A stretch of 64,000 bases of DNA from a virus. The notes beneath the pieces were generated by a model that saw only the letters and a program-made list of their open reading frames with translations, did not search any database and was not told where the DNA came from. The DNA is taken from positions 1-64,000 of the IMG/VR virus record IMGVR_UViG_3300030108_003282. One strand, 5' to 3'. Position 1 is the stretch's first letter. Every line of letters starts with the position of its first letter. This document shows, piece after piece, positions 1,433 to 61,594 of this stretch. The translations under genes and the position numbers were made by a program.

Positions 1433-1647
1433 AAGCGGTAGGTAATTTTGCTATTATTAAATTAGAGAACTCAGTATCAAGTTTAGGCATTCAAGTTAAA
1501 ACGGATGGAAAAGGACTTGTCCATTCATGTCCAAGTATTCCTGATATTGAAGGAAAGACCGTTCTTTTTGATGATAGGCATAGACACATCACTCATGAGG
1601 AATTTATTTTTGTTCCTACTGAGAATATTTTAGGGGTGTTTGAATGA
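1429..1647 (+). CDS. GroES-like co-chaperonin (short)
   Basis: The 72-residue protein lies two genes before a GroEL homologue. Its pattern matches GroES: an N-terminal strand NFAIIKLE like the DRVIVK strand, a short mobile loop ending in LGIQV like the GIVL contact, a GKTVLFDD strand like the VGDIVIF strand, and a C-terminal ENILGVFE like the DILAIVE end. GroES caps the GroEL chamber; phage T4 encodes its own version, gp31. At 72 residues it is shorter than GroES (about 97), with a trimmed loop and probably a reduced roof. The call rests on pattern plus neighbour; a structure prediction would confirm it. Confidence 0.65.
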   Translation: MKAVGNFAIIKLENSVSSLGIQVKTDGKGLVHSCPSIPDIEGKTVLFDDRHRHITHEEFIFVPTENILGVFE

Positions 1648-1736
1648 TTAAAGATTTGACAGATGAAGAGAAAAGCAAGTGGAAAAAGGCTATCCGCAAA
1701 GTAAAAGAAGATTTGAAAAAGAAAGAGGAGGAATGA
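1644..1736 (+). CDS. 30-residue charged helical peptide between GroES and GroEL genes
   Basis: An ATG at 1644 overlaps the GroES-like stop and opens a 30-codon frame, ending in TGA at 1734-1736 inside the start of the GroEL gene. The peptide is almost entirely Lys/Glu/Asp with a single amphipathic helix. It may serve mainly as a coupling frame, because its last codons contain the GAGGAGG ribosome binding site of the GroEL gene. No function is assigned. Confidence 0.5.
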   Translation: MIKDLTDEEKSKWKKAIRKVKEDLKKKEEE

Positions 1737-3229: not shown

Positions 3230-3231
3230 AT

Positions 3232-3633
3232 ATGGTAAAGAAAGGTAATTATACTTGTAGGTATTGTGATAAAAAATATAAGCGTGGAAAATACACTTCT
3301 TGTTGTAATCAATGTGCTCAAACTAAAGACTATTGTTTAACCGATAGTTGTAATAACTCTTCAATTTTACTAGATGGATATACTATGAAAGGCTATCCTA
3401 AAATTGAAGGAAAAACAATTTTATTAGGCGATGTTAAGGACAAAGCATTTAATTTTTGTATTGATAATAATAAAGATAGCACTTGGTTGTTTAACCATTG
3501 TCCTTCTTGCTTTGAAAAAGTAATTGGCGTTGAAGAACAAGACCATGAACTTGCGATTAAAATGTTAGACATGACTCTTAAAGAACAAATGATGGCTGAT
3601 AGTAAAAACCAATGGAGGAAAAGAAATGCTTGA
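3232..3633 (+). CDS. Cysteine-rich zinc-binding protein
   Basis: This 133-residue protein has an N-terminal C-x2-C pair in CRYC, a C-x2-C pair in CNQC with a preceding Cys, and a later CPSC near residue 90. This is consistent with two treble-clef or ribbon zinc sites, but no named family is recognised. It follows the chaperonin by two nucleotides and overlaps the next small zinc-ribbon gene. It is probably a viral regulatory or adaptor protein; that is inference from the zinc-ribbon content only. Confidence 0.6.
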   Translation: MVKKGNYTCRYCDKKYKRGKYTSCCNQCAQTKDYCLTDSCNNSSILLDGYTMKGYPKIEGKTILLGDVKDKAFNFCIDNNKDSTWLFNHCPSCFEKVIGVEEQDHELAIKMLDMTLKEQMMADSKNQWRKRNA

Positions 3634-3745
3634 AGATTGTCCACGATGTAAAAGAAGAATCAAACAATCCGATAGATATTTTTTACGAAGATATGGGGTT
3701 TGTGAAGAGTGTGTTAAAATAATGAGGTTGGGTAAGCATGAATAA
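3626..3745 (+). CDS. 39-residue zinc-ribbon microprotein
   Basis: A short frame starts at ATG 3626 behind GGAGGAAAAGAA and codes a protein with CPRC at 5-8 and C-x2-C at 26-29, a minimal zinc ribbon. Both ends overlap neighbouring genes, matching the operon's packing, which supports it as real. Basic residues between the two knuckles suggest nucleic-acid or protein binding. No specific partner can be named. Confidence 0.6.
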   Translation: MLEDCPRCKRRIKQSDRYFLRRYGVCEECVKIMRLGKHE

Positions 3746-4139
3746 GAAAAAGGCAATTACTGTTATTTTACCTGCCCCACATAAAGCAAGAGTTAAATGT
3801 CCCATTTGTTTAGGAAATAAATGCAAAGTTTGTGATATGACAGGAGAGTTGGCTATTGAAGTTGCTCCAAAGATTCCTATTCAAAGAGCGCACATTATTA
3901 AGTATGTTGCTGAAAATATGCATGAAATAGCAAAGGAAATAACCAAGAAATATGGTTTAGTTCCTGAAATTAATACTGCGGAAGTTTTAGAAGTGAATGA
4001 CGGACAATTTGAAATCGTTCAAATTTCAAGCCTCGGTGGTGTTTGTTGGGTGGTTAATCGTCTTGATGAATTAGATACACCAAGATATTTTACCTCAAAA
4101 CGAGAACTTGACAAGTTTAAACAGGGGTGGATGAATTGA
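3738..4139 (+). CDS. Zinc-knuckle protein, function unknown
   Basis: The 133-residue protein has an N-terminal CPICLGNKCKVC cluster (C-x2-C-x4-C-x2-C) of the DnaJ-like CxxCxG zinc-knuckle type, followed by a helical region and a C-terminal alpha/beta part. The knuckle is compact enough to bind one zinc. Because it lies just after the chaperonin block, a link to protein folding is possible but not shown. It overlaps the preceding microprotein by 8 nt. Confidence 0.6.
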   Translation: MNKKKAITVILPAPHKARVKCPICLGNKCKVCDMTGELAIEVAPKIPIQRAHIIKYVAENMHEIAKEITKKYGLVPEINTAEVLEVNDGQFEIVQISSLGGVCWVVNRLDELDTPRYFTSKRELDKFKQGWMN

Positions 4140-4348
4140 CAGATGAATTAGAAGTCAAAGGAACAATAGTCCGTAATGCTGAATTGGACTGTAAAATAAA
4201 GCGTGGTGTCTATTGGAATATAGAGGTCATGGATATTCGTTGGTATCGTAATGACAAACCAACAAATAAAGGCATTCGTTTGAATGTTGATGAAGCAAAA
4301 TTGTTATTACAAATTTTAAGGAGAGAATTAGATGAAGAGAGTAAGTGA
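4127..4348 (+). CDS. Hypothetical 73-residue protein
   Basis: An acidic N-terminus precedes a predicted beta-rich core (VKGTIVRNAELDCKIKRGVYWNIEVMDIRW) and a C-terminal helix. The start is uncertain: GTG at 4127, or TTG at 4136 that would overlap the previous TGA as TTGA, an arrangement also seen at 9668 and 13677. No family is recognised. The core could be a small beta barrel. Confidence 0.55.
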   Translation: MDELTDELEVKGTIVRNAELDCKIKRGVYWNIEVMDIRWYRNDKPTNKGIRLNVDEAKLLLQILRRELDEESK

Positions 4349-4610
4349 TGTTCAATCAAAGAAAAGCCTACGGGCAGCAAATGAAGATAGACAATACGGG
4401 CATAATGCTGTTCCCCGTTTTGGAAACTGTGCTGGAAAAATTATTGATTTATTCGCACAATATGTTGAAGATAGTATGACTATTCCACCTAAAGGCGGAA
4501 GAGGTTGCCGTGTTCAAAAAGAACACATTGATTTGTGTTTTGGTAAGTTTTATCAGGCTATGAGAGAATTTATGGATAATGAAAAGAAAGGTGAAGAAAA
4601 TGAACAATGA
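4332..4610 (+). CDS. Hypothetical 92-residue protein
   Basis: No family is recognised. The protein has a basic N-terminus, a central helix holding one Cys and a Gly/Arg-rich loop (KGGRGCR), and an acidic C-terminus. AAGGAGAG precedes the ATG at 4332, and the gene overlaps both neighbours. It has no membrane segment. Confidence 0.6.
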   Translation: MKRVSDVQSKKSLRAANEDRQYGHNAVPRFGNCAGKIIDLFAQYVEDSMTIPPKGGRGCRVQKEHIDLCFGKFYQAMREFMDNEKKGEENEQ

Positions 4611-45731: not shown

Positions 45732-47084
45732 TCAAAGAAGGTTGGTAATCTTTCCTTGACCCTTGAAGTAAGAACAACCAGTTTCACCCATTGTGCGATA
45801 AAGAGCCTTGTTTCCGAGGTTTCCAACACCGAATGGGTTTCCGTTGCTGATACCATCCTCGAAATACTGAGTAGGCTTCATCACAGACAGCCACAAATGG
45901 TCAGTATCAAGGAAAAGCATATCGCTAATCAAACTTGAGTTATTACCAGTAGTAGGCATAGCGGCAACAGGAATCAAAGGAATGTCGTAGTAAGTAGAAA
46001 CACGGAATCCGACTTCTTGACCCTTAACACCACGAACACCGTTCACGGTTGGGACAATTTCTTTTCGGTCCATGAATCGCTCTTGAGCCTGTAATAAGTC
46101 AGAAAGCGTTTGAAGGGTGTCATATCCAGTAAGGATAACCTTTGGTGAACCGCCAGCAACACGGAGTCTTCGGAGCATATCGTTAATAACCGTTAAGGTT
46201 AATTGTCGTGCTTCTGCCGAAAGGTAGCCATCACCAAAAGAAACTTCTGCATCCAAAAACTCGTTTCCTGAATCACTTCTTTGCTTTCCGTAAAGGTGGT
46301 CAATTTGTTGGTCAGTAGCAGAATCAACAAGGTTTCCACCAGAATTGTCAGCCAATTCGGTAATTTCAGCCGAGTTAGAAACAATCTTCATAAGAGAAGT
46401 GTAGCCTCTATCAATAGCGTTTGCCGTGTTATAAGCCGTAGTTGGAGAATAGTTCTCCAATGGCATAACAAGCATAGTGTTTTGAACTTCAGCGTGATGC
46501 TTACCCATGTCTTCTCTCAATTGCGCTCTAATATCACCGATACCGTCGTCAATCTGAGCCATTTCCATTGAAAGTTCGCTGAAAGCAAATTGATGAGCAA
46601 TAATTTTTGGGCTCGTAAAGAGAACATCGTATTCAGGAGCAATTGATTGAAGACCGTCCGAATCTGAATCTAACGATGCATTTTCTGGAACGCCACCAAT
46701 TCGGTCTGCTCTCAAAGAATCAGCACCATAAAGTGCAGTATTAAGAGTGGTGTTGGAAGCGGCAGAAATGTCCAAAAAGTTTCCAGAACCGCCAGCAGGA
46801 CGCTTCTTGAGGATTCTCCAACCACTTGAAGAATATGGTCGCTTTGAAATAACAGACAATGCGTTGCATTCTCGGTTTAACATAGACCAGACCTTTTGGC
46901 CGTAAATCTTGTTGTAAAGGTTTGCGTTAATTCCCGATGGGTCGCTAAATGAACCATCGTGAGCAACATGAATGCCGCTTACGGTTCCTTGAGCCTTAAG
47001 CAATTGATTGCTAATGTGGCCCGTTGCGCTTGTTCCATAGGTTTGTGCTTCTAAATCTGCAATAGTGTTAATATATCCTGTCAT
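45732..47084 (-). CDS. Major capsid protein (HK97 fold, probable)
   Basis: The 450-residue protein directly follows the protease-scaffold gene and precedes small head genes. The middle contains the helix QLREDMGKHHAEVQNTMLV and the pattern LTVINDMLRRLRVAGGSPKVILTGYDTLQ with a later strand region, typical of HK97-type capsid proteins in archaeal caudoviruses. Strong GAGGTGATTTAGC start site and regular codon use suggest high expression. The 47096 protease probably removes an N-terminal part. Confidence 0.85.
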   Translation of the reverse strand: MTGYINTIADLEAQTYGTSATGHISNQLLKAQGTVSGIHVAHDGSFSDPSGINANLYNKIYGQKVWSMLNRECNALSVISKRPYSSSGWRILKKRPAGGSGNFLDISAASNTTLNTALYGADSLRADRIGGVPENASLDSDSDGLQSIAPEYDVLFTSPKIIAHQFAFSELSMEMAQIDDGIGDIRAQLREDMGKHHAEVQNTMLVMPLENYSPTTAYNTANAIDRGYTSLMKIVSNSAEITELADNSGGNLVDSATDQQIDHLYGKQRSDSGNEFLDAEVSFGDGYLSAEARQLTLTVINDMLRRLRVAGGSPKVILTGYDTLQTLSDLLQAQERFMDRKEIVPTVNGVRGVKGQEVGFRVSTYYDIPLIPVAAMPTTGNNSSLISDMLFLDTDHLWLSVMKPTQYFEDGISNGNPFGVGNLGNKALYRTMGETGCSYFKGQGKITNLL

Positions 47085-47095
47085 GCTAAATCACC

Positions 47096-48355
47096 TCAAA
47101 GGTTTCCTCCAACCATTTTATGAATGTCAGCCCAATCCATTTCGGCTAATTCATCCATAGTAGGGAGTTTGATAGAAGACTCTTCTTGAGCCTTTAGGAT
47201 GTTTTCCTTCTCAGCAGTCAAAGACTTGCGAAGTGCGGCAAATTCATCCTTAAGAGAAGCAATTTCGCTTTGAGCATCATATTGAGACTTTGCGAGAATG
47301 TTTTCTCTTTGAGAAGTTTCAGCCTTGAAGCGAGCCTCAAACTGCTTTTGGAGGTTGTCGTAAGCCAACTTCTCTAATTGTTCTTGACGGAAAGCCTCGT
47401 AAGCCTTCTCAATGTTTCCAACAGATAAGTCAAGGGTTTCTAATTCTTCGTTGTTAAATGCCTTAACAACTGGTAAATCAGAAGCCTTTGGTCGGCCTCC
47501 TTCAATAATGATTCTGTCAGCAGGTTCGCCAATTTCAACACCTGCTCCATCAAGAGTAGGAACATAGGCTTTGGCTTCATCATCCATGTATTCGCCCATA
47601 CCCTTCTCTTCATCATCCATCATTTCTTTGTCGTCCTTCATCTTTTCAGACATCATTTTGTCCTTTTCAGACATCATTTTGTCCTTTTCATCCATCAACT
47701 TTTCAGACATCATTTTTTCGTCCTTCATGTCCATGTTTTCTTCTTCTTCCTTTCTTAGCGTATTGACTTCTTCCATAAGAGCGTCAAGTTCTGCCAATGC
47801 TTTTTCAATTCTGGTCATTTTTTTCACCTTTTTTGTTTTTTCTTGCTTTAAAATGTCAAATTTTGCTTCTGGATTAATTCCTTTTTCACAAATAGTGACT
47901 TCATGTAATTCTAACTTTGAAATTTCGTTGTATTCCCCTAATTCATCATGGGTTTTCTTAACTTTCTCTAAAGCCTGTCCTCCAATACTGAAACTTCTTA
48001 ATGAACCTTTTCTAATGCCACGATTAATTTCTTTGGCCTTTTCAATATCATCTCTTAATTTGATTACAACAAAGAATCCTACATCATCAACTTCTGTTTT
48101 GAATAGTCTCCCTGATTTATCTCGGTATGATTCAACAACTTCTCCGACTTGAACATTTGAATGATTTGTCATTACATTTCTAAACTTGGGGTTCTCCATG
48201 TATTTCTTTACCGCTTCTTGAAGGGCTTTAAGTGTGATTAAATCATTTTGCTTATCAACGATTTCAATGCTTGCATATCCTCCAATCATTAAATCGTCTT
48301 GGCTTTTGAGAATCCTGAAATCAGAAGTGTTGTTTCGCATCACCACAGAAGACAT
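47096..48355 (-). CDS. Prohead protease fused to scaffold domain
   Basis: The first 175 residues carry the HK97-type serine protease pattern: His in MTNHSNVQVGE, Ser in LRSFSIGG and the acidic residue in HEVTICEKGINPEA. Residues about 180-419 form a long coiled coil, including a Met/Lys/Glu/Asp repeat region (about 205-250), that would be the scaffold. The C-terminus is DWADIHKMVGGNL, near-identical to the end of the 81-residue protein at 51486. ATG 48355 is preferred over TTG 48364. The product guides capsid assembly and then cleaves itself. Confidence 0.9.
   Translation of the reverse strand: MSSVVMRNNTSDFRILKSQDDLMIGGYASIEIVDKQNDLITLKALQEAVKKYMENPKFRNVMTNHSNVQVGEVVESYRDKSGRLFKTEVDDVGFFVVIKLRDDIEKAKEINRGIRKGSLRSFSIGGQALEKVKKTHDELGEYNEISKLELHEVTICEKGINPEAKFDILKQEKTKKVKKMTRIEKALAELDALMEEVNTLRKEEEENMDMKDEKMMSEKLMDEKDKMMSEKDKMMSEKMKDDKEMMDDEEKGMGEYMDDEAKAYVPTLDGAGVEIGEPADRIIIEGGRPKASDLPVVKAFNNEELETLDLSVGNIEKAYEAFRQEQLEKLAYDNLQKQFEARFKAETSQRENILAKSQYDAQSEIASLKDEFAALRKSLTAEKENILKAQEESSIKLPTMDELAEMDWADIHKMVGGNL
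47647..47688 (-). repeat. Two perfect 21-nt tandem repeats in the scaffold region
   Basis: The unit cagacatcattttgtccttt(t) occurs at 47647-47667 and 47668-47688 without change, with degenerate copies from about 47,620 to 47,735. In protein it gives MMSEKDK heptads in the coiled coil. The repeats could expand or contract by slippage and change scaffold length. Confidence 0.8.
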
Positions 48356-48400
48356 TCTTCTCAACCCCTACTAACCATTATCCAGTATATAAAGAACAAC

Positions 48401-50947
48401 CTATTCTTCGGTAGGAAGGGGTAATTTGTTATACCTATCTTCATAAATATTCCACTTTCCTTCATCCCCTTCCTTATCAGCAGGAGTTTGTTTATATCCA
48501 GTCCATGCAAGCCACATTCTTTGTCCATCTACGTCTAAGACTCTATAATGCATTTTAGTTTCAAACTTGTTGCCTTCTAAGAAATATTCATGATAGCCGT
48601 CCCTTTGAATGCCTAATCTTATCTTTCCAGAATCAATAACTTTTCCCTTAGTTACTGTTTTTGCTACTTCTGCTGGATATTTCCCAGCCGCACCGAATAA
48701 ATCAAAAAGTTCTTCCTCATTCTCGACATTAATTGTCCAAAACATATTTTCAGTTTTAAGTTTGATTGCTAATGTTATATTATCATCTTCTCTCGAATAA
48801 AGTTTGAATTCACCCTCTCTTAACTCAGGCGGTGTTTTATATTCACCTTCGACGGCTTTAATATCTTCTTTTTTAATTTCTTCTTCCTGCATGATTTTAT
48901 CATCATCAGCAACTATTTTATTGTCTTTTTCGCTAATACCGTCTCTAAGAATAGACCATTGTTTAAGTTTTTTCTCATCAGAATCAAGAACCTCTTCATA
49001 TAAACTGGGCTGTTTTTCTTTTAAGAAATTATGTAATTGTTTTGGTGTCTTAGGACCATTCATTTTTAAATGCTGAAAAATAGCAACAGTTAAATCGCTT
49101 TGTTTTGATTTCATAATATCAATTACCTGTTGCTTCCACATATCTAAATCCATTGTAGCATTTCTAGACATTAGATTATCTTCTTCATAGCCATAGATTG
49201 TAAATCCATCTATATCATATTTGATAATAATATTTGCTTCTCCATGAATATGGTCAGTAATTTTTATTCCTTTTGTGAATGCTTCAACATCATAATTAAG
49301 AGATTTCTTAGTGTCTTGAGAAAGTAATTCTAATGTGACTAGTTTATCGGGATGTTCTACTTCGGGAATCTCAATAGGTTTTGCTGAAAACAAACTAAAC
49401 CCGTCTCCCTTCTTTTTGACTTCATCTACCTTTACTCGAATAATATCCCCAACATCTACAGAAATTTTTGTATTGAGTGCTTTACCTACATTCAAATAAT
49501 GTCTTTTCTTTATTTCAACTGCTCCAGTCATTTCTTCATCAACTGGCCCAACACCCACAGTATAAGAAAATAGATTACTTTTTGTTTTCTTCTTATCTAA
49601 AACAATAACATCTAAGTCAACAAACTTCTTCAATTTAATCCATTTTGGATTTTTCTTAGTGCCAATATAATAAGTTGAAGTAGCGTCTTTAATAACTACT
49701 CCTTCAGATGTAGGAATTTGCATCATTTCTTCTGCATACTTCTCAATATCTTTTAAATTATCTGCTTGGCGAGTATCTTTCTTTGATGGATATGCTATCG
49801 CTTCGCTAGATTTAGAGGAATAGTTATTGAATAAAATTGTCATTCGGTTCTCTAATTCTTCGTCTGCCAATGTCTGAGATTCGTGGCGAATAATATCAAA
49901 AACATGGCATCGAAGTTTAGCGTCTTTATATTTCCCTTTGAAGACATGAGCGACGGTATCGGCTCTATGAAGAGGCTCATCATTATTAAAAAGAACCAAT
50001 TCTCCATCTAAAATACAATCACCATACTCTTTTTTCTTTAATTCCTTTACTTGTTCTTTACATTGTTCAGAAATGTCTTTACCATTAAATGAATATATTT
50101 TAACATTGTCATCAATTTTATGCAACTGGACTCTCATCCCGTCGTATTTTTCTTGAACATACCAGTTGCCACTAAACCCTTTTAATTCATTAATATCATC
50201 TACTTCAAAAATTCTATACATGGGTTTATTAGGAATAATAAACTGCGATATGGACTTTTTCTCATCACTCGGAATAGACTTCTCTAATCCGTCTATATCT
50301 TTCAGTTCTTCCCAATCTTCCTCTTCATTTTTAGAAAAGAAGATTAGTTCTAACATATCCATAGCAGCCTTTACTTTCGATTCGACCTTTTTTGAGTCTT
50401 TTCCGTCTCCGTAATGTTCTATAATATAGAGGGCTATGTCGTCCGATTCTAGGTCAAGACCCATAAGACCCTCCGTAATTGTGTCGGGACGCATCCCTTT
50501 AACACTATAAATGTCAGCAGATAGGGCTTTATTATCGTCCCTTAATGCATAATGCACAAATTTAACCATAGTTTCTGGATTATCTAACAATTCTTCAAGA
50601 ACACCGTCCTTGAACATCGTTGCGAAAGGGTCAGCAACGATAGATGAGGAATAGCGAAGAAGTTTTACTTTATCAAACAGTTCTTTTGCTTGTCTTGAAG
50701 AAGGGTCTTTTGCGTCTTTGTCTTCTAAATCCTTTTCATCAATAAAGTTTCTCATCTCTTTTCCTGCGGCATCACTCTCATTATAAGAGTCTATAATCAT
50801 ATCAACCGCTTTACGCCAACGACCCGAATATTCTGTAGGGTCTTGTCTTGCAGATAAATAGGCAACTCTTGTCTTTTCAAATAGACGAAGAATTTCTTGG
50901 GAAGGCTGTTTATCCTTCTCAATAGAACCCAACTTCATACAAATCAT
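48401..50947 (-). CDS. Large ATP-dependent DNA ligase encoded among head genes
   Basis: The 848-residue protein has ligase motifs: I EKYDGMR with Lys267, III LDGELVLF, IIIa HVFDIIRH, IV EGVVIKDA and V KWIKLKKF, followed by an OB-fold. It has a 240-residue N-terminal helical region and about 300 extra C-terminal residues. These include helical linkers and a beta domain with KMHYRVLDVDGQRMWLAWTG. It is unrelated in detail to the ligase at 5702. Its site between portal-side genes and the protease suggests a virion-linked ligase, perhaps packaged and sealing the genome on entry (inference). Confidence 0.88.
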   Translation of the reverse strand: MICMKLGSIEKDKQPSQEILRLFEKTRVAYLSARQDPTEYSGRWRKAVDMIIDSYNESDAAGKEMRNFIDEKDLEDKDAKDPSSRQAKELFDKVKLLRYSSSIVADPFATMFKDGVLEELLDNPETMVKFVHYALRDDNKALSADIYSVKGMRPDTITEGLMGLDLESDDIALYIIEHYGDGKDSKKVESKVKAAMDMLELIFFSKNEEEDWEELKDIDGLEKSIPSDEKKSISQFIIPNKPMYRIFEVDDINELKGFSGNWYVQEKYDGMRVQLHKIDDNVKIYSFNGKDISEQCKEQVKELKKKEYGDCILDGELVLFNNDEPLHRADTVAHVFKGKYKDAKLRCHVFDIIRHESQTLADEELENRMTILFNNYSSKSSEAIAYPSKKDTRQADNLKDIEKYAEEMMQIPTSEGVVIKDATSTYYIGTKKNPKWIKLKKFVDLDVIVLDKKKTKSNLFSYTVGVGPVDEEMTGAVEIKKRHYLNVGKALNTKISVDVGDIIRVKVDEVKKKGDGFSLFSAKPIEIPEVEHPDKLVTLELLSQDTKKSLNYDVEAFTKGIKITDHIHGEANIIIKYDIDGFTIYGYEEDNLMSRNATMDLDMWKQQVIDIMKSKQSDLTVAIFQHLKMNGPKTPKQLHNFLKEKQPSLYEEVLDSDEKKLKQWSILRDGISEKDNKIVADDDKIMQEEEIKKEDIKAVEGEYKTPPELREGEFKLYSREDDNITLAIKLKTENMFWTINVENEEELFDLFGAAGKYPAEVAKTVTKGKVIDSGKIRLGIQRDGYHEYFLEGNKFETKMHYRVLDVDGQRMWLAWTGYKQTPADKEGDEGKWNIYEDRYNKLPLPTEE

Positions 50948-51485: not shown

Positions 51486-51731
51486 TCACTCCATTTTTGA
51501 AACCATTTTATGAATTTCGGACCAATCCATACTAGAAACATCAGTTGTCGGTAAAGAATCAACTCCACCAACACTATTATCCATAGAAGGGGTTGGACTT
51601 TGAGAAACAACTAAACCTGCTTTCATTAGAAGACTATCCTTTGCATAAATTGTTTTTTCTAATGCTTCCACTTTAGCGGTTAAAGCCTTAATTATTTCTA
51701 ACACATCTTTGTTAATACTCTCTTCTGTCAT
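51486..51731 (-). CDS. 81-residue protein with scaffold-type C-terminal peptide
   Basis: An N-terminal coiled coil (residues 5-45) is followed by a Ser/Pro-rich linker and the C-terminus SSMDWSEIHKMVSKME. The last part matches the scaffold end DWADIHKMV at 47096 in protein and nearly in DNA. It probably binds the same capsid site as the scaffold and could be an assembly helper. AGGAGGAAAAGAA precedes the ATG. Confidence 0.65.
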   Translation of the reverse strand: MTEESINKDVLEIIKALTAKVEALEKTIYAKDSLLMKAGLVVSQSPTPSMDNSVGGVDSLPTTDVSSMDWSEIHKMVSKME

Positions 51732-52093
51732 TTCTTTTCCTCCTTTTTACCAACTGGATAAATTAAATCTCTTAATTGTCTATAAAGAAGTTCGTACTCT
51801 TTACGAAGTTTCGTAGCAGTAGCCACTATATCAATGTTCCTTTCATCCATTGACTTCATTTTCTTATTTAACTTCTTGTCTGATTTGATTAGTTCTAATT
51901 CTCTAAGAGTCTCAATAAGTTCACCTAATTTAGTAAAGTCTTGACCAAAAAATTCTGTGGGTTCTGCGGCTTGAAGTGTCTTTTTCAGTTTTCTTCTTCC
52001 TTTAGTATCTAAAGAGTCAATAAGTTTTTTAGGCTTTTGTTTCTCCTCTTTGAGAACAAAATTATCTCCATCTCCGTAGTAATCCCATGTCAT
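51728..52093 (-). CDS. 121-residue charged helical protein
   Basis: Two Lys/Arg-rich helical halves with Leu heptads are separated by a short loop. It starts at an ATG that overlaps the previous stop in GGGGAAGAAGAATGA, the same junction type found on the + strand. No family is recognised. Confidence 0.55.
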   Translation of the reverse strand: MTWDYYGDGDNFVLKEEKQKPKKLIDSLDTKGRRKLKKTLQAAEPTEFFGQDFTKLGELIETLRELELIKSDKKLNKKMKSMDERNIDIVATATKLRKEYELLYRQLRDLIYPVGKKEEKK

Positions 52094-53679: not shown

Positions 53680-53904
53680 TCAAAAAGGAATGTTTTCTTT
53701 CTTTCCTCTTTTTTTAGGAGGTAATAGAATAACATCGGGATTATCTGCCGATGATGGCCTAGCCTTGTGAGAAGTATCTGGTGGTAATCCAACAGACATA
53801 TCTCTATTCTTCTTTACCTTATTATTCTCTTGTGCTGTCATAGCCTTAACTTTGGCTAATTCTTTTGTTAGTCTTCTTTGTTTTTGGTGTAAATCTTCGC
53901 TCAT
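53680..53904 (-). CDS. 74-residue basic protein
   Basis: The protein has an N-terminal Lys/Arg-rich helix, a Pro/Ser-rich middle and a basic end (PPKKRGKKENIPF). Predicted largely disordered. TGGAGG precedes the ATG at 53904, which overlaps the previous gene by 4 nt. No family is recognised; nucleic-acid contact is possible. Confidence 0.6.
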   Translation of the reverse strand: MSEDLHQKQRRLTKELAKVKAMTAQENNKVKKNRDMSVGLPPDTSHKARPSSADNPDVILLPPKKRGKKENIPF

Positions 53905-54215
53905 ATTTTTGCCTCCATTAAATTTCCTCGTGTTCTTTCTAAAATTTTAATAAGTTCTTCTTTTGACATTTGACCAATTTTATCCATAACGGCATCCATT
54001 AAATCTTCTCTTGTCATTTCAGCCAATTCATCCATTTCTTCTCCAAACATAGAATCAAAGGTAGGGTCATCCATTCTTCCAGAAGCAGGAGAAGGTTTTC
54101 CTCCTGCTACCTTAATAGGTGGTTTTCTTCTTTCAGGACTTCTACTTCTTCTTTCGGGGTCAAGTTCCCGAATAGGTCTTACTCTTGCCTTTATGATGTT
54201 TTCCCAACTATTCAT
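53901..54215 (-). CDS. Tagged 104-residue protein (W-x-N-I-I-K N-terminus)
   Basis: Starting at ATG 54215, just after the portal stop and behind GGAGGGTTGG, the protein begins MNSWENIIKAR, a variant of the peptide tag shared in this block. A Pro/Arg-rich linker follows, then an acidic helical C-terminus with Met/Glu. The earlier in-frame start at 54248 lies within the portal gene and is not used. Function unknown; targeting into the capsid is proposed. Confidence 0.65.
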   Translation of the reverse strand: MNSWENIIKARVRPIRELDPERRSRSPERRKPPIKVAGGKPSPASGRMDDPTFDSMFGEEMDELAEMTREDLMDAVMDKIGQMSKEELIKILERTRGNLMEAKI

Positions 54216-54216
54216 A

Positions 54217-55857
54217 TTAACCAACCCTCCTTTCTGTTCTTCTGTCATTGTTTTGATTTCCAGCGTCTAACGGCAATCCCGACATTCGCTTATCGGGTGC
54301 TACGCTCATGGAGGGTTTATTTCTTGTGGTCGCAGGATTCTCCTGTGGCTTGCTCCCGCCTTGAAGTGCTTGTTCTTGCATTTGTCCCAATTGTGAAGCA
54401 TCAATGTTTGTTCCTGCATACGGGTCAGTTTGAGCAGTTCCCTCTCCCTTTTCACCCTCTGGTTTTTGTTCGGGTTCTGGCTTCTTAAAAGTAAATTGAC
54501 CATCTTCATCCATATCTACTTCAAATCCTAGATTTTTAGTTGATGCAGCAATATTAACTTCAATCTCACGCTTACGAAGAACAGCAATTTCATCTTCTTC
54601 TTCGCTTGGAGGCAACTTTAAGTTCCAATCTGTAATACCAAATTGTTTTACAAGGAATGGAAAAACGTAATTATTATAGACAGTTTGTGCTTTTTGAACT
54701 GCTCTATTCGTTACAAGAATTTGCATACCTTCATTGTTTAATCCACCGCTAGTAGTGTTATCAGCCATAAAGACTTTACTAACTCCATAAAAGGCTGATA
54801 TTCTATCTCTTAAATCATCTTTAACAGAAACATAATCCATTTCTTTAAGGCTATCCATGAACTTAATCCACTCAACTCCGCCTTTACCACCTTCTGCTTC
54901 AATTCCCATAACAGGAATAAAATGAGGGTCTGCCTCCATTTTTTCTTTTACAGAACGCCAAAAAGACCTCATTGAATCCATGTTTCTTGTTTGGACTGCC
55001 AAAAGACCTCTTGGCATACGACTCTTAGTATAGGAAGAATTAACATAGTTTTCCATAGCAATAAGAGTCATGATATTATTAAAGAGAGTAATTACAGGAG
55101 ACATACCATATAACCTTGAAGGGCTGTATTTACTAAAATGTAATACTTCTCCTTTTAAGAAATATTGGTCGTCTCCTTTTACCCTATTAACATAATGAAT
55201 AGGGAATAAATTACTACCACAAATTTCGCACTTTTCATGTGGGTCTTTGTGAATAATGTTGCGATGATTTACACAAGTAAAGCCTTTTGTTCCTCTTTGT
55301 CCATTTTCATCGCTATAAATAAACATAGTAACTGGGTCGCCTCGATAAACTTCTTTAACTCGATGCATTCTAATTTTACCATTACCATCAATAAAATATT
55401 CTTTAACAAGAACAATATAAGCATCATCCATAATATTTAAATCATCTTCAAGTTCCTGTAAAACATCAATAAACAACTGTTCAGACTTATTTACATAACC
55501 CTCGATGAACTTCTCAGCGTATTCCAATTGTTTAACATCGGGAATCTTAAGGTCGGTGCTTCCACAACGAGAGCATTCTTGAACAGGTCTTTTGTGTTCT
55601 TTACTACAATTATTACATCGTGCTTCATATGCTTTTTCCCAAACATAACCTCTTCTAAATACTTCTTGTTTTAGTTGAGTAATACAAGTTCTAGCGATTA
55701 CGGATTGATTAACGATATTATAAATAATTGGGCCTGTCATTAAGTGGTGGGTTTCTCTTTCTTGAATACCCATATTGTAGACTTTTCTATCAGCAGGTTT
55801 GGGAGTTTGTCTCCTAAATAGGTTAGTAATACTAAATCGTCTTTTTTCTTCAACCAT
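54217..55857 (-). CDS. Portal protein with two zinc-ribbon inserts
   Basis: The 546-residue protein follows the portal pattern: an N-terminal helical stem with EETHHLMTGPIIYNIV-like start, a central region with YFLKGEVLHFSKYSPSRLYGMSPV and a C-terminal region with FYGVSKVFMADN. Two zinc sites are visible: CNNC...CSRCG near residues 80-98 and CVNH...CEICG near 194-213, unusual for a portal. The C-terminal 100 residues are Pro/Gln/Gly-rich and disordered. The portal is the DNA gate; it sits near terminase and protease genes as expected. Confidence 0.88.
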   Translation of the reverse strand: MVEEKRRFSITNLFRRQTPKPADRKVYNMGIQERETHHLMTGPIIYNIVNQSVIARTCITQLKQEVFRRGYVWEKAYEARCNNCSKEHKRPVQECSRCGSTDLKIPDVKQLEYAEKFIEGYVNKSEQLFIDVLQELEDDLNIMDDAYIVLVKEYFIDGNGKIRMHRVKEVYRGDPVTMFIYSDENGQRGTKGFTCVNHRNIIHKDPHEKCEICGSNLFPIHYVNRVKGDDQYFLKGEVLHFSKYSPSRLYGMSPVITLFNNIMTLIAMENYVNSSYTKSRMPRGLLAVQTRNMDSMRSFWRSVKEKMEADPHFIPVMGIEAEGGKGGVEWIKFMDSLKEMDYVSVKDDLRDRISAFYGVSKVFMADNTTSGGLNNEGMQILVTNRAVQKAQTVYNNYVFPFLVKQFGITDWNLKLPPSEEEDEIAVLRKREIEVNIAASTKNLGFEVDMDEDGQFTFKKPEPEQKPEGEKGEGTAQTDPYAGTNIDASQLGQMQEQALQGGSKPQENPATTRNKPSMSVAPDKRMSGLPLDAGNQNNDRRTERRVG

Positions 55858-55910
55858 AAATCACACCCCCTTTTTTATCCCTACGCTATCCTTGCCTATC
55901 AACGCTTCGG

Positions 55911-56165
55911 TCAGGGTTGGCCCCTATCCTCGATGTCATATCTTTCGTTGCTTGAACGAAGCATTTCGTCTAAAATACCCTTTAAATACGTTGGTCTATT
56001 TTCTGGTTTTTTCATTCCAGACTTTAAATAATAGATGACCATTCTTTTATTTATGTCTGCTAAATTAGTGTATCGGACATATTTTTTCCTATCTCTTGGT
56101 AATTCGTCATTTATGATACCGTCTTTGAGTTCTTTCCAACTCATTCTTTTTTTAGCAATCACCAT
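55911..56165 (-). CDS. Tagged small basic protein, 84 residues
   Basis: The ATG at 56165 overlaps the previous stop. Residues 8-15 read MSWKELKDG, a weaker form of the W-x-[DE]-[IL]-K peptide. The rest is a helical, basic protein with Arg/Tyr pairs. An in-frame start at 56144 would place the tag at the exact N-terminus. No family is recognised. Confidence 0.55.
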   Translation of the reverse strand: MVIAKKRMSWKELKDGIINDELPRDRKKYVRYTNLADINKRMVIYYLKSGMKKPENRPTYLKGILDEMLRSSNERYDIEDRGQP

Positions 56166-56326
56166 GCTTGCCCCCAATATAAAGCGAATTCTGTTTGACA
56201 GGTCATACATTTTTCTCTTTGACTAACGGCCTTTTTGCATTTACGACAGACCGTAGCATAACGAATGCGTTTAGGTAATTTTTTTCTTACTGTGTGTTTA
56301 AACACTTCATAATGATGGCGTGGCAT
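56159..56326 (-). CDS. 55-residue zinc-ribbon protein
   Basis: An ATG directly after the stop of the 56327 gene opens a frame with a basic N-terminus (residues 1-25) and CRKC/CMTC at 27-30 and 40-43, a zinc ribbon. The spacing and overlap with the next gene support it, and no other frame covers this 116 nt stretch on this strand. Likely binds DNA or a capsid partner. Confidence 0.6.
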   Translation of the reverse strand: MPRHHYEVFKHTVRKKLPKRIRYATVCRKCKKAVSQREKCMTCQTEFALYWGQAW

Positions 56327-56617
56327 TTAGCAATTCCACCTTCTTCTAGCGGCTTTTGCTTTCTCGCTGTAAGTGCCATCTTTTCTCTTAAATCCTCTTG
56401 ACCTTGCACAAAAACTCTTTCTTCTTTTTGCTGCCTTACTTCCAGGTTTTAATTTACTAGGCTTAGTAGTAACTGGTGGCTTTAAATTAGAACCTTGTTC
56501 ACGCTTAAACTTAGCACGACCTTTAGCACTTAATCCACCCGTTCTTGCGTGAATCTTTTTGTTATAGCCTTTAAATGGCTTCTTTTTCTTTTTAAGAATA
56601 TCTTGCCAATCATTCAT
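56327..56617 (-). CDS. Tagged basic protein of the phage LSAKGR/NLKPPV type
   Basis: The ATG at 56617, behind AGGTGATAAAT, gives MNDWQDILKKKKKPFKG, a clear tag followed by a Lys tract. The body has GGLSAKGRAKFKREQGSNLKPPV, then RKSFCARSRG and ARRRWNC, a pattern I recognise as common in small phage proteins of unknown function. It is extremely basic (about 36 Lys/Arg in 96 residues) and probably binds DNA inside the head. Confidence 0.7.
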   Translation of the reverse strand: MNDWQDILKKKKKPFKGYNKKIHARTGGLSAKGRAKFKREQGSNLKPPVTTKPSKLKPGSKAAKRRKSFCARSRGFKRKDGTYSEKAKAARRRWNC

Positions 56618-57185
56618 ATTTATCACCTATCATGTAGCCTAATTTTTTTCCTGCTTCAATATCGCTTGGGTAGTGGCTTCCCATTTGTATTCTTGATAAA
56701 GAAATTTTGTCAGCCATTTCTTTTAATTCTTTCTTCTTATCTGGATATTTTTTTCCTAAAACTCTTTCTAATCCATGAGCAAGCATTGAATGACCGCTTG
56801 GGAAAGCAGGAGTATCATCTGTTTTTGTTTTTGTTGTTTTTATTTTATCAGATATTTGATGAGGACGTGGCCTTTGGTATTTCATTTTAAGTGTCATGGC
56901 ATAATAATTAATATCTTTCATGAAGTCCATGTAATTATTTTTGTCCTCGCCTACAATTTTAAACATTTCAACATCGGGTTTTAAGTCAGAATCTTTCATT
57001 TGCTTAGGAGTTATTCTTTTCTTTTTCATTGTTGCTATCACAGAAGGTATTTCTTTTTCTTCTTGGGGATAACTTAATTTAGGAATATCTATTTTCATCT
57101 TTGGGCTTCTTTCTAATATTTTCTTCTTATCTTCCGAAAGTGTTCCTTCCCACTTTCTTTTCTTAAGAATAGAAAACCAATTCAT
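56610..57185 (-). CDS. PAP2-type acid phosphatase with N-terminal tag
   Basis: The 191-residue protein has the three motifs of the PAP2/vanadium haloperoxidase superfamily: K100-x6-R107-P108, PSGH at 129-132 and S164-R165-x5-H171-x3-D175. No membrane helix is seen, so it looks soluble, like class A acid phosphatases. The ATG at 57185 gives MNWFSILKKRK, a shared tag, directly at the N-terminus. It would remove phosphate from lipid, nucleotide or other substrates. Packaging into the virion is proposed from the tag and place in the cluster. Confidence 0.85.
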   Translation of the reverse strand: MNWFSILKKRKWEGTLSEDKKKILERSPKMKIDIPKLSYPQEEKEIPSVIATMKKKRITPKQMKDSDLKPDVEMFKIVGEDKNNYMDFMKDINYYAMTLKMKYQRPRPHQISDKIKTTKTKTDDTPAFPSGHSMLAHGLERVLGKKYPDKKKELKEMADKISLSRIQMGSHYPSDIEAGKKLGYMIGDKYE

Positions 57186-57189
57186 TTTA

Positions 57190-57567
57190 TCACTTTGGTT
57201 TATGTGTGTAAATGTCTCCATCTTTGTGCATAAAGATTTTACCTTCCTTTTCTAATTTAGACAAGGCTCTTTTAATTTCAGATTCTTCTCCAAATTGTTT
57301 TAGATTTTTCATCCCCAATGCTCCGCCTTCTTTTTTGATTTCAGCAAGAATTTTTGCTTCAATGTCTTGTTTAACCATTCTTCCAACCACAGGTCTTTGC
57401 CCTACACCATATTTTTGTTTTAGTTCGCTAATCAAACGACTTACATTAATCATAGGGCTATTTCTTCTATCAAACTCTCTTATTGCTTCATCAGGCAATC
57501 CTCTTAGAGCAGGATAAGTTTGCCTTAGTCCTTTAATATCTAATTTCAATATATCTTTCCAAGTCAT
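57190..57567 (-). CDS. Tagged winged-helix protein
   Basis: The 125-residue protein begins MTWKDILKLD, the tag, and ends in a domain with KRALSKLEKEGKIFMHKDGDIYTH that fits a winged-helix DNA-binding fold (residues about 65-125). AGAGGATG precedes the start. It may be a viral transcription factor brought in with the genome; that is inference. Confidence 0.7.
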   Translation of the reverse strand: MTWKDILKLDIKGLRQTYPALRGLPDEAIREFDRRNSPMINVSRLISELKQKYGVGQRPVVGRMVKQDIEAKILAEIKKEGGALGMKNLKQFGEESEIKRALSKLEKEGKIFMHKDGDIYTHKPK

Positions 57568-58022
57568 GCTCTCATCCTCTTTGTTTTTCTTTTACTAGAT
57601 TCTTTTCTTGCTAGTGCTACCTTATGTGCTGAATTTAATCTTTTCTTTGTTTCAGGGTCTTTGGCTCTCTTTGCTGCTACCCTTGCTCTTTGTTCAACTA
57701 AATTGATAATTTGTGATTGTCTCTTGTGTGGTTTTGATTTAAATGAAGAACTAGAAAAAGTTTCTCTTACATCTTTTGCAGTTTTAAACTTTACAGGGAC
57801 AGTATCTTTCGGGTTTTCATCAGTATATAATCTTCTTGTAGAACCCTTCGGCTTCTTCCCAGTCCCCTTCTTCGGGTCTTTCTTTAAAATATTTTTCCAA
57901 CTCTTTCCAACATATCCTGAAGCATAAGCGGCTGCTGCTTGTCTTTCGGCATCTTTACGATTTTTATAGACTTTACCCTTACTACCCCATTTATAGCCGC
58001 CTTTTACCTTTCTAATAGGCAT
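57564..58022 (-). CDS. Basic protein with KGGYKWGSKGK domain and internal tag
   Basis: The 152-residue protein begins with a short domain, MPIRKVKGGYKWGSKGKVYK and AERQAAAAYASGY, a pattern familiar from many phage proteins near terminase and portal genes. The shared peptide SWKNILKKDPKK follows at residues about 41-52, then a Lys/Arg-rich tail with KRQSQIINLVEQRARVAAKRAK. The start at 58022 is chosen over an upstream ATG at 58031. Highly basic, likely DNA-associated. Confidence 0.7.
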   Translation of the reverse strand: MPIRKVKGGYKWGSKGKVYKNRKDAERQAAAAYASGYVGKSWKNILKKDPKKGTGKKPKGSTRRLYTDENPKDTVPVKFKTAKDVRETFSSSSFKSKPHKRQSQIINLVEQRARVAAKRAKDPETKKRLNSAHKVALARKESSKRKTKRMRA

Positions 58023-58027
58023 AAGAA

Positions 58028-58312
58028 TCACTTTTGACTAAATTTCTTTCCTGTTGGAACGTGCTGAATACCCTTTTTACGGCCTTTTCTTTTCTTTGAG
58101 TCTTGATACCGAAGAGTTTTCTTATCTGTTCTCTTATAGGTCGCTCTTGGCATATATCTTCCTTTAGTTTTGGGTTTTGGTTTCTTGCCTTTATCTTTTG
58201 CTCTATGCTGTTCAGCACTCCCCCAATCCTCATCAGTCCAAGTAGATAAATCTCTTTGCCTTTTTGATTTGGCTTTGAGAATATTACGCCAATTAATTTT
58301 TATATCCGCCAC
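58028..58312 (-). CDS. Tagged basic protein, 94 residues (GTG start)
   Basis: A GTG at 58312 gives MADIKINWRNILKAKSKRQR, with the tag close to the start. The body is Lys/Arg-rich with Trp/Asp motif STWTDEDWGS and ends KFSQK. A longer in-frame start at 58378 would read through the previous gene in another frame and is unlikely. Probably a DNA-binding virion protein. Confidence 0.6.
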   Translation of the reverse strand: MADIKINWRNILKAKSKRQRDLSTWTDEDWGSAEQHRAKDKGKKPKPKTKGRYMPRATYKRTDKKTLRYQDSKKRKGRKKGIQHVPTGKKFSQK

Positions 58313-58502
58313 CAGCCCTCTTATACGCCTGAGCCAACATCTGCGCTTTTCTTGCAGACCATTGACCTGCCGCACCACCTTTTGTTCCTCGTTTAATTCT
58401 ATTAAAAATTCTTTTTCTCATTCCAGGTTTTGTATAGTTTCCAGACTGATTTACAGTAGATTTCTTCTTTTTCTTTTTCTTTAAAATATCCTGCCATTCC
58501 AT
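58293..58502 (-). CDS. Tagged basic protein, 69 residues
   Basis: The protein begins MEWQDILKKKKKKKST, the clearest form of the tag with a following Lys tract. The body has RIKRGTKGGAAGQWSARKAQ, an Ala/Gly/Lys-rich region reminiscent of small phage head proteins. AAGGAAGTGAAAAA precedes the ATG. It is likely packaged; function unknown. Confidence 0.7.
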   Translation of the reverse strand: MEWQDILKKKKKKKSTVNQSGNYTKPGMRKRIFNRIKRGTKGGAAGQWSARKAQMLAQAYKRAGGGYKN

Positions 58503-58519: not shown

Positions 58520-60154
58520 TTAATCTTGTGTTTTTTCAATAGTTCCCATTTCTTCAATATAAAGTTTAAGATATTTTTGCATTCTTCCAATAGCATAACT
58601 GTAATTTTGTCCAGATTTATACATCAAGTGTGCGGTTTCAAGTTCTCTGATAATTTTTGCAAGTCTATCACTAATAGCAGTGGTATCTAGTTTTCTATCA
58701 AGAATTTTTTTAGTTGAAGAAATAATGTGGTCTACCTCTTTATCACCTAAACCTTTTTTATCTCTTAAATACGGAGTTGAACTTTTAGTAATCTTAATAA
58801 TTGTTCCAATATTTTCTAAAGAGTCCATAACCGACATTTTACAATTGTCTTTGTATTTTTGAATATCATCTAAATAGATACCTTCTTTCAACCAATCAAA
58901 ACCCACATGGTCTTTATGATTCTCCCACTTCATTAACTTAAAAATTTCATCACAACGGCTTTTATACCAGTCGGCTTTCTTATATGACTTCTTCATGCGA
59001 ATCAACTCAAGCAATAACTCAGCGTTGCCTTTCTTAAGACGAAAATGAGGAAGACAATTCTTTAACAGTTTAGAAACATCATCCTGTGAATAAAAATTTA
59101 ATCTATTAATTAAACGGGTTGCTTGTGGAGATTTCTGGTCTAAATGCATTCTGCCGAAACCAAGAGACTTATGCATTTCTTGCATAAAAGCCTTACCTCT
59201 TTCTCCTGTTGCGACTAATCCTACTCTTGGATTCATGTTGCGGTCTAATGTAATATATCCATCTGAATCAATAAAAGCAGCAGTATAAGCCCAAATATTT
59301 TTCTTAATCATAGAAGGGACTTTGTAATACGAACCCTTTACAGAACTAATTTCTAATTTTTTGACTGCCTTTGAAATTGAATTAGGGCTTGCTGCTTTAT
59401 GAAGAGAGGAAGGCATTCTTTCGTGTATTCCTGAAGCAGTAATTCCTGGATTTTCACAAACCATTTTTAAAATAAAGTCCTCTGTTCTTTGTTTCTTTGA
59501 TTTGGTAAGAGACTGGTCTGTAATCTTAGAAATAGCATTTCTAAAATCCTTTTTAGCAGAACTCATAGTTTTGTGCAGATTAGAATATTCTTTTCCATAG
59601 GCCATTCCAGTTTGCTCTATTTCAGCCTCCCAGTATTTACAAAGAGCATCAACAGTTTCTCTTCTTAATTCTGAACTTTTCATCTTATGTAGTTTGGACA
59701 AATCTTTCTCATTATACCTCATTTTTCTTAGAGGAACCTCATAGTCGTTTAACCAAGTAATAGAACCGATGCAATTATTTAAATGTTCAGTATAAGCATC
59801 AATCATCGTATCAATGGCTTTTGACATTTTAATACGATGTTCCCCCTTCAACGCTCTCCGAGACTTTCTCATTTTTCTAACTAAATCAGGAATAGTGTGT
59901 TCTTGAACAATATATTCATTTGGAAAAGAAGTGAGTCTCTTTCTTGCATCGCTAGCATTGATGTTAAAAGCAGTAGATAATTTAACTATTTCTTCATGCT
60001 CAGACATAACATAGGTATTGTTGAAGATACTCTTTAATTCTGTATCTAGTTGTTCCTCTATGCTATCTTTAACTTCGGCTTCTTCTTCATCTAATTCGGC
60101 TAAACGGTTCATTTGTTCAGCCGCTTGACGGTATTTATCTGCCTGTTCTGTCAT
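58520..60154 (-). CDS. DNA-binding protein with LAGLIDADG domain, possible small terminase
   Basis: The 544-residue protein has an N-terminal coiled-coil region (residues 1-220), then a winged-helix-like segment (NPGITASGIHERMPSSLHKAA to SSVKGSYYKV, about 235-285). A single LAGLIDADG motif follows in AYTAAFIDSDGYITL (about 291-305) with the usual domain behind it, and a helical C-terminus ends it. It is directly downstream of the terminase gene, where small terminases commonly lie, but no classical TerS match is seen. Whether the LAGLIDADG part still cuts DNA is unknown. It is not an intein, since no splice motifs flank the domain. Confidence 0.65.
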   Translation of the reverse strand: MTEQADKYRQAAEQMNRLAELDEEEAEVKDSIEEQLDTELKSIFNNTYVMSEHEEIVKLSTAFNINASDARKRLTSFPNEYIVQEHTIPDLVRKMRKSRRALKGEHRIKMSKAIDTMIDAYTEHLNNCIGSITWLNDYEVPLRKMRYNEKDLSKLHKMKSSELRRETVDALCKYWEAEIEQTGMAYGKEYSNLHKTMSSAKKDFRNAISKITDQSLTKSKKQRTEDFILKMVCENPGITASGIHERMPSSLHKAASPNSISKAVKKLEISSVKGSYYKVPSMIKKNIWAYTAAFIDSDGYITLDRNMNPRVGLVATGERGKAFMQEMHKSLGFGRMHLDQKSPQATRLINRLNFYSQDDVSKLLKNCLPHFRLKKGNAELLLELIRMKKSYKKADWYKSRCDEIFKLMKWENHKDHVGFDWLKEGIYLDDIQKYKDNCKMSVMDSLENIGTIIKITKSSTPYLRDKKGLGDKEVDHIISSTKKILDRKLDTTAISDRLAKIIRELETAHLMYKSGQNYSYAIGRMQKYLKLYIEEMGTIEKTQD

Positions 60155-60163
60155 ATAAATACC

Positions 60164-61594
60164 TCAAAAGTTTAAGCCTATGGACGAAGAAAAGCCCTGT
60201 TTTGGTCGTTGCGGAGCATCGTTAAACAGCCCTAAATCATCGAGCAGTATGAAGTTATCGCTGGCCTGATAAGTAGCGGCATTTGCTAAAGCAAGACTCA
60301 TCACCATATCGTCATGCGCCCCAATACCTTCAAATTTTCCACGCTCGGTAATAGCAAACATTGATAATTCTTCAATAAGCAAAGAAGAAACCTTTCTACT
60401 TTCTTCATTCCCGTATGGGAAGTGAATCTTTCCATTTTCAAGAGACATTTGTAAATTAAGAATAATCTCTTGTTTCTTTCTTCTAGTTGTATCAAAGTCA
60501 TGAACATTTACATCAGCAACTTGACGAAGTTCTTGAGTAAATGATTTAGCAAAAGTATTTGTTTCAAACAAAATAACTTCGGGTCTAAAGACTTGATTTA
60601 ATAATTTTACCTTTTGAATATTTTCACGGAACTGAACGTTCTTTGCTCGGTCTACGTACACAATTGATTTATTTTCATTTTCATCTACCTCAAGAACAGT
60701 AATCACATTGTAATCCCCATCAGTAGAAATAGCGGGGTCCACTCCTATGAAATATTTATATCCTTCACGCTTTAATGGTTTCAATACTAAATCTTTGTTC
60801 TTAGCATTATCTAAATGTTCGGGACTGAATAAAGAAGTTCCTGTTGAAATAGGCACACACATATATTCTCTTGTAAACATTAATGAACCGACTTCTGCCT
60901 TACGAGCCATTAACGCCTCATAGTTCCATCGGTCAGGCCACAACGGTTCGTTTAGTGCATTTAAACAGGGGTATGTTCTAACAGTATAAGCAGCATTTTC
61001 GGATAATTGCTGGTAAATATCCGTATAACTGAAAGGTGTTCCAATAACACGTAAAGATGCGGTATGGTGAAGTGTTGGAATCATATCCCCATAAAACCAG
61101 TCAGTGACTTTTTGAATACCAGTCATACTAAACTCTTTCAAAGGGTCATCAATAACAATCTCTTGAGGGTGAAGCCCACGAATCTGTGAACCAACCGACC
61201 TTTCAAGGATTTGGTTTCCATTGGTTAATGTAATATTCCCAATAGCCCAACCTCTTGCGGGTTTAAATTTCTTGAGCATTGGGTGAGTAAACATCTTATC
61301 AATGTCTCTCATGTGAACCAAAGTCTGTTTTTGGTTAGAAGAAATATAAAGCATTTGATATGGAGGCTCTTCAAAGATTAATTTCCACACAACCCATGAA
61401 TGCATAAATACAGATTTTCCGTGGTCTCTTGAACAGATAATTACAGTTCTTTGAGTAGTGTTCATTAACTCATGCCATTCCTGTATGTATGAAGGAAAAT
61501 CAAAACCTAATACATTTTGAAAAAAATAAGGGAACGAGTTTTTGGATAACTGCATATCCATCTCATGTTCAAAATTAAAGGCTTCTAATTCCAT
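60164..61594 (-). CDS. terL: Large terminase subunit (TerL)
   Basis: The 476-residue protein has ATPase motifs CSRDHGKS (Walker A, residues 54-61) and EIVIDDPL (Walker B), and the C-terminal RNase H-like nuclease with GVDPAISTDGDYN, LFETNTF and GAHDDMVMSLALA. It packages viral DNA into proheads using ATP and cuts the concatemer. AAGGAGATAG precedes the ATG. Both domains look intact. Confidence 0.95.
   Translation of the reverse strand: MELEAFNFEHEMDMQLSKNSFPYFFQNVLGFDFPSYIQEWHELMNTTQRTVIICSRDHGKSVFMHSWVVWKLIFEEPPYQMLYISSNQKQTLVHMRDIDKMFTHPMLKKFKPARGWAIGNITLTNGNQILERSVGSQIRGLHPQEIVIDDPLKEFSMTGIQKVTDWFYGDMIPTLHHTASLRVIGTPFSYTDIYQQLSENAAYTVRTYPCLNALNEPLWPDRWNYEALMARKAEVGSLMFTREYMCVPISTGTSLFSPEHLDNAKNKDLVLKPLKREGYKYFIGVDPAISTDGDYNVITVLEVDENENKSIVYVDRAKNVQFRENIQKVKLLNQVFRPEVILFETNTFAKSFTQELRQVADVNVHDFDTTRRKKQEIILNLQMSLENGKIHFPYGNEESRKVSSLLIEELSMFAITERGKFEGIGAHDDMVMSLALANAATYQASDNFILLDDLGLFNDAPQRPKQGFSSSIGLNF

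Follow-up and report, generated by a model that had tools for sequence, protein, structure and literature searches.

Why should many unlike proteins of one virus begin with the same short peptide? The question is raised by a 64,000-nucleotide stretch of DNA (positions 1 to 64,000; here called the window) from IMG/VR record IMGVR_UViG_3300030108_003282, a virus contig of 94,926 bases that appears to belong to the magroviruses, a type of tailed virus that infects marine group II archaea (PMC10160649). An original prediction, made from the window alone, had noted a repeated W-x-[DNSE]-I-L-K peptide at or near the N-termini of proteins encoded beside the portal and terminase genes, and had proposed a capsid-targeting tag. 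The tag, M-x-W-x-[D/N/E]-I-L-K, was found in this virus and its relatives on well over 100 unrelated protein families, conserved at the protein level and confined to late genes upstream of the capsid gene. We consider it quite probable that it is an N-terminal capsid-loading tag, which imitates the C-terminal shell-binding peptide of the scaffold and recruits cargo to the prohead.

Seven strong tag peptides were verified in the window, all of them in real, co-oriented minus-strand genes, and none of the pattern hits fell in antisense open reading frames (ORFs), which confirms the predicted repetition on many unlike proteins. The minus strand carries the late genes, encoding the terminase, portal, S78 prohead protease, SU10-type major capsid protein and tail proteins, and all window features given here and below lie on it. 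N-terminal tags were found on a 69-aa Lys-rich protein (58293-58502; MEWQDILKK at 58476..58502, identified from the sequence and from homologues of the body), on protein 58028-58297 ((I/M)NWRNILKA, 58271..58297), on a winged-helix-like protein with weak winged-helix Pfam matches only (57190-57567; MTWKDILKL, 57541..57567), on a PAP2 phosphatase (56610-57185; MNWFSILKK, 57159..57185; PF01569, 1.7e-12), on a DUF6321 protein (56327-56617; MNDWQDILKK, 56588..56617; PF19846, 3.8e-16) and on a protein encoded directly after the portal gene (53901-54215; MNSWENIIKA, 54186..54215; evidence from 32 loci). One more, KSWKNILKK (57879..57905), is internal, within GKSWKNILKKD at the junction of a two-part fused protein (57564-58031). 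The bodies differ, as had been predicted.

Some details of the original prediction needed correction. The peptide INWRNILKA is present, but its gene starts at 58297 and not at 58312, most likely with ATT, because homologues show ATT or ATG at exactly that place: ATTAAC overlaps the upstream TAA stop, ATT is in register at ~31 of the fetched loci described below, and ATG occurs in the homologues of other viruses. MSWKELKDG (56118..56144, in 55911-56210) is also present, but only as a degenerate variant, with a homologue that has MSWRELHRG, and its start is at 56144, not 56165. Homologue comparison pointed to a further, probable degenerate tag, MTWDYYGDG (52067..52093), on a 121-aa protein (51728-52093); of its 109 homologues with an N-proximal match, 15 have the canonical tag and 94 lack it. 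The region 53901-58502 does hold tags, but was too small, since the tag continues beyond the window. Tagged genes of the record were found there at 67968-68285 (MSWQTILKN), 70332-71174 (MSWFDILKV) and 71598-71801 (MSWRDIIRK), and looser forms, including MSWFEQLK, MSWRDVVLK, MWKESIKK, MWKDDIKK and MWKEDIRK, in five neighbour genes (65695-67950, 71177-71353, 71354-71647, 71906-72124 and 72105-72359).

The portal protein was used to fetch 80 related loci, in which W..[ILV][ILMV][KR] matched 502 times; 491 matches were on the sense strand, and 335 lay at most three residues from an in-frame Met. Nine near-complete related genomes were used for ORF counts, which rest on mechanical ORF tiling without curated gene calls; by a strict pattern, 118 of 630 late-strand ORFs were tagged (6 to 23 per genome), against none of 641 on the other strand. 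Shuffling of the N-terminal residues gave a mean of 0.9 tags and a maximum of 4 in 200 trials, and an IMG/VR-wide DNA pattern for M-[ST]-W-[KQ]-D-I-L-K returned at least 120 stretches, compared with 4 for a control with reversed codon order. Chance as the source of the tag is excluded by these comparisons. Matches to WLSVMK were discarded, as they lie inside the capsid protein and hence are not tags. With respect to the major capsid gene, 116 of the 404 late ORFs upstream were tagged, against 2 of 225 downstream, among tail-side genes.

Across all fetched loci, 978 distinct tagged proteins fell into 371 sequence clusters, 109 of which had two or more members. In an alignment of 105 representatives of different families the W was invariant and the K near-invariant, with the consensus MxWxxILK and nothing common beyond it. 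Few functions could be assigned to these representatives (11 Pfam and 17 PHROG families); the annotations included PAP2, DUF6321, pentapeptide repeats and some zinc-ribbon-like proteins, and an HExxH metalloprotease-like protein was recognised by eye. Separately, a relative of a tagged cysteine-rich family was observed in Actinomycetia phage DSL-LC01 (L125, 63051-63785), directly before the capsid maturation protease; it is annotated as a high potential iron-sulfur protein, and the match begins at residue 11 of the tagged query.

Codon usage indicates that the tag is conserved as amino acids, and so acts as a peptide, because all six Leu codons occur at its conserved positions, together with all three Ile and both Lys codons. 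It also persists within fused proteins, far from any start codon; for the fusion 57564-58031, the downstream part is in relatives a separate gene beginning with the tag. Homologues were checked for absence or lack of conservation of the motif, and the tag was conserved while the bodies differ. The body of the 69-aa protein has homologues in Pelagibacter, Roseobacter, Puniceispirillum (HMO-2011) and other phages, with matches mostly from residue ~15. Among 17 homologues of the PAP2 phosphatase, M1, W3, I6, L7 and K8 are invariant. In the AlphaFold model of this protein, residues 1-13 have a predicted local distance difference test score (pLDDT) below 50, and the body is well folded (whole-model mean pLDDT 84), with 7f17 (E 1.3e-5) among the acid phosphatases that it matches. 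In this one modelled case the tag is thus predicted to lie outside the body fold, and an end that is conserved yet unfolded would have the look of a docking peptide.

The same core was found at the opposite end of two other late proteins. The S78 prohead protease (47096..48364; PF04586, 2.2e-10) is fused to a long, predicted helical, scaffold-like tail ending EMDWADIHKMVGGNL (motif at 47114-47140), and an 81-aa coiled-coil scaffold-like protein (51486..51731) ends SSMDWSEIHKMVSKME (motif at 51504-51530), so that both C-termini read M-[D/E]-W-x-[D/E]-I-H-K-M. All complete homologues listed for the protease fusion have M-[DEN]-W-[SANK]-[DET]-I-H-K-M or a near variant at the extreme C-terminus, as do those of the 81-aa protein, in which the motif is kept in ~60 distinct homologues and, in a looser form, down to ~41% identity. 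In divergent scaffold-type members W-x-[DE]-[IV] is still present, W+4 is H or N, and W-2 is usually Met or Ile. The two proteins have in common only the terminal peptide and their coiled-coil character; the 81-aa query directly finds the C-terminus of a protease fusion (70% over 20 residues, E 1.7e-4). No relative of the 81-aa protein was found in the phage collection, and the C-terminal motif was not present in the neighbouring conserved proteins, nor at the termini of 11 head-region proteins read in the halovirus HVTV-1, whose prohead protease is related and whose genes are similarly ordered. A scaffold role is suggested for both proteins by their coiled coils and gene position, by the protease fusion and by the herpesvirus parallel described below.

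A profile built from the N-terminal tags alone was slid over ~29,500 sequence windows per genome in the nine genomes, with the tags removed, and ranked both scaffold-type C-termini 2nd-7th in every one of them. The better-scoring matches were nearly all further tags missed by the strict pattern, and a few were internal or possibly due to chance. The earlier proposal of capsid targeting thereby gains independent support, because the scaffold-type C-termini have the same core and the tags lie almost only upstream of the capsid gene. Among the 120 IMG/VR pattern stretches listed, 108 had BLAST hits to magrovirus proteins. Five of the remaining 12 have several tagged ORFs each, on contigs that also encode a magrovirus-type protease-scaffold homologue, one, a fragment, has a tagged ORF but no protease in the record, and six were rejected as chance DNA matches without a tagged ORF. 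The tag and the protease-scaffold therefore co-occur, even on five contigs without BLAST hits to reference magroviruses. Another C-terminal W-x-x-I-x-K was observed in five other genomes, in proteins of ~221 aa that end IWL[DE]IKK[RK]MQE[KR]LQ and sit at the late-operon place corresponding to 68282-68947 of the record (L001:6282-6947); these proteins may likewise use that site, or the resemblance may be due to chance.

In the mechanism that we propose, the protease-scaffold fusion and the small scaffold protein would attach to the inside of the shell as it grows, via their C-terminal W-peptides, most likely through the SU10-type major capsid protein (45732..47084; PF17236, 4.4e-6; phrog_24667, 2.9e-20), the presumed peptide partner. 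Late proteins with the same short amphipathic peptide would bind the same site and become trapped in the prohead as cargo before DNA packaging, and some of them could be delivered to the next host cell, injection being a guess by analogy. The scaffold role, the capsid-protein partner, the packaging and the delivery are what we infer from the observations above. With somewhat less assurance, we also favour the broader view that the shell-binding peptide of the scaffold, transferred to an N-terminal position, serves magroviruses as an open address code, by which any late protein acquiring the tag would become prohead cargo; this would give a large, fast-changing packaged set (phosphatase, metalloprotease-like, nucleic-acid-binding and many unknown proteins), probably delivered to the host.

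Several points weigh against this mechanism. Position W+4 consistently differs, being H in the scaffolds and L in the tags, and the K at W+5 is lost in divergent scaffolds; the binding of the tag may therefore not be identical to that of the scaffold peptide. The profile match is partly due to the Met at W-2, which is the start codon in the tags, and without that column the two C-termini ranked 3rd-25th. No conserved residues follow W+5, and no conserved cleavage site was seen behind the tag. An AlphaFold2 model in which the scaffold tail continues in-frame into the capsid protein (L021; stop codons translated as Ser) had a pLDDT of 46 and a predicted template modelling score of 0.28, and was uninformative on docking. 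The scaffold function is itself deduced from sequence and gene position, and packaging is predicted from the genes.

The differences at W+4 and W+5 would fit a tag that targets the prohead through a partner other than the shell, namely the scaffold core, portal or protease, in which case the likeness to the C-termini would be looser, as when the maturation protease recognises both. The T4 internal proteins, which are described as entering the precursor scaffolding core (PMC3012670), offer a precedent for such a route, but we regard it as unlikely here: the M-x-W-x-[DE]-I core and its spacing are common to both peptides, and in each of the nine genomes the N-tag profile picks out both C-termini. 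A role outside the virion, with the tag recruiting late proteins to a host or viral factor of replication, transcription or the membrane and resembling the scaffold by coincidence, is less probable still. Short docking peptides on unrelated proteins are presumably a general device, and the abundance of Lys in several tagged proteins could allow them to bind nucleic acid within the cell; however, such a role would leave unexplained the 641 untagged opposite-strand ORFs, the near absence of tags downstream of the capsid gene, and the exact recovery of both scaffold-type C-termini by the profile.

The location of the tag at gene starts, together with the high variability of the accessory genes among genomes, could also suggest that what is conserved is a nucleic-acid feature, such as a signal for translation initiation, a downstream box or a site of recombination by which accessory genes are shuffled. 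This is very improbable given the full range of Leu, Ile and Lys codons used, the tags kept within fused ORFs far from the start codon, and the same core at protein C-termini. We give the least credit to common ancestry, by which the tagged proteins would be paralogues of one duplicated gene and the tag its remnant. Some tagged neighbours in one genome are alike (G007 series, 337 to 4419), but the 371 clusters are without detectable body similarity and include the PAP2 phosphatase, DUF6321 and pentapeptide-repeat proteins, whose folds are unrelated, and bodies are related to untagged proteins of bacterial phages.

Capsid loading through a copy of the scaffold peptide, the reading that we prefer, has partial counterparts in known systems. 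The tag would work like the T4 capsid targeting sequence (CTS), the P1 DarB signal and the encapsulin peptides, by functional analogy and not by membership. The T4 internal proteins have only the CTS in common, which places them in the scaffolding core (PMC3012670, PMC7697877). Like the magrovirus tag, the CTS of IPI, IPII, IPIII and others is an N-terminal peptide of ~10 residues, with aromatic and hydrophobic positions, on unlike proteins, the magrovirus tag being likewise short, conserved and N-terminal on several proteins that are otherwise unrelated. However, the T4 internal proteins begin MKTYQEFIAEA or MKTFKEFTS, that is MKT[YF]..F, and no sequence relationship was found, with only a loose aromatic-x-x-hydrophobic pattern in common. 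Unlike the T4 CTS, the magrovirus tag is carried by 6-23 proteins per genome, in hundreds of clusters, with no fixed cleavage site seen, and its motif also ends the scaffold-type proteins, whereas T4 gp22 begins MLKEQLIAEA, which is only loosely CTS-like. The likeness to the T4 CTS drawn by the original prediction thus holds for function but not for sequence, and membership in the known classes is not claimed, because the sequence differs from the CTS, no cleavage site is evident and encapsidation is deduced.

In P1, the N-terminal 30 residues of DarB direct the protein into the capsid (PMC9024508); this signal is reported for DarB, with no consensus found among the Dar proteins, and P1 appears to have no separate scaffold. 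Encapsulin cargo-loading peptides are short peptides on unrelated cargo that load it into an HK97-type shell (PMC8346489, PMC10960027), but encapsulins are a cellular compartment with dedicated cargo enzymes, and the magrovirus system would be viral, with many cargos and a scaffold. In herpesviruses, the UL26 protease-scaffold and the UL26.5 scaffold both bind the major capsid protein through a common C-terminus (PMC12474303, PMC12005531). A similar organisation was found in magroviruses, with a protease-scaffold fusion and a separate protein of presumed scaffold role that have a conserved C-terminus in common, although the herpesvirus protease is different and no cargo is described there as copying the C-terminal peptide. 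The magrovirus tag is new in its scale, in its occurrence in viruses presumed to be archaeal and in matching the terminus of the scaffold itself. The motif was not mentioned in any paper found in a search limited to open-licence literature.

If this reading is correct, an eight-residue rule would identify the products of dozens of unknown late genes in each genome as predicted contents of the virion, and the cargo of uncultured viruses would become readable from sequence. To our knowledge, no magrovirus has been cultured so far. Each virus would have a large, fast-changing set of packaged proteins, under the first general cargo code of this kind described for an archaeal virus. Foreign proteins could be loaded into an HK97-type shell with the peptide as a minimal tag, and a route by which cargo systems could arise is suggested, namely the copying of the peptide with which the scaffold itself binds the shell.

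The genome of the window was provisionally assigned to the magrovirus type, and to the order Magrovirales, by comparing its gene content with the published description (PMC10160649), which it matches. The set compared consisted of the SU10-type capsid protein, the S78 protease, the portal (54217..55857; PF04860, 1.3e-11; phrog_18178, 1.4e-65), the terminase large subunit (60164..61594; phrog_38, 5.6e-56), an archaeal-type ligase, a TFB-like protein recognised by eye in the record, and the size of ~95 kb; the portal and the terminase are untagged. In the surface ocean, magroviruses are described among the most abundant viruses (PMC10160649). An origin from a provirus or host genome was rejected, as only one bacterial contig from a metagenome-assembled genome (MAG) and one distant Thermoplasmatales contig turned up. 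The former (L126, NZMJ01000061.1, from a 'Maricaulis' MAG bin) has a terminase stretch 97% identical to that of the window and is probably a mis-binned magrovirus contig; no tags were visible on the Thermoplasmatales contig. Two of the fetched loci (L026 and L077) belong to the same contig, IMGVR_UViG_3300021958_000021 (184,733 bases), which has two different magrovirus portal genes and probably arose from the joining of two genomes during assembly, or from co-binning into one record.

Two neighbouring genes of the window were also noted. The archaeal-type ligase, an ATP-dependent DNA ligase (48401-50947; phrog_114, 6.6e-23), lies within the head gene cluster, between the portal and the protease. 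After the terminase, in a 544-aa protein without a Pfam match (58520-60154), a LAGLIDADG-like stretch, AAFIDSDGYITLDRN, was seen by eye.

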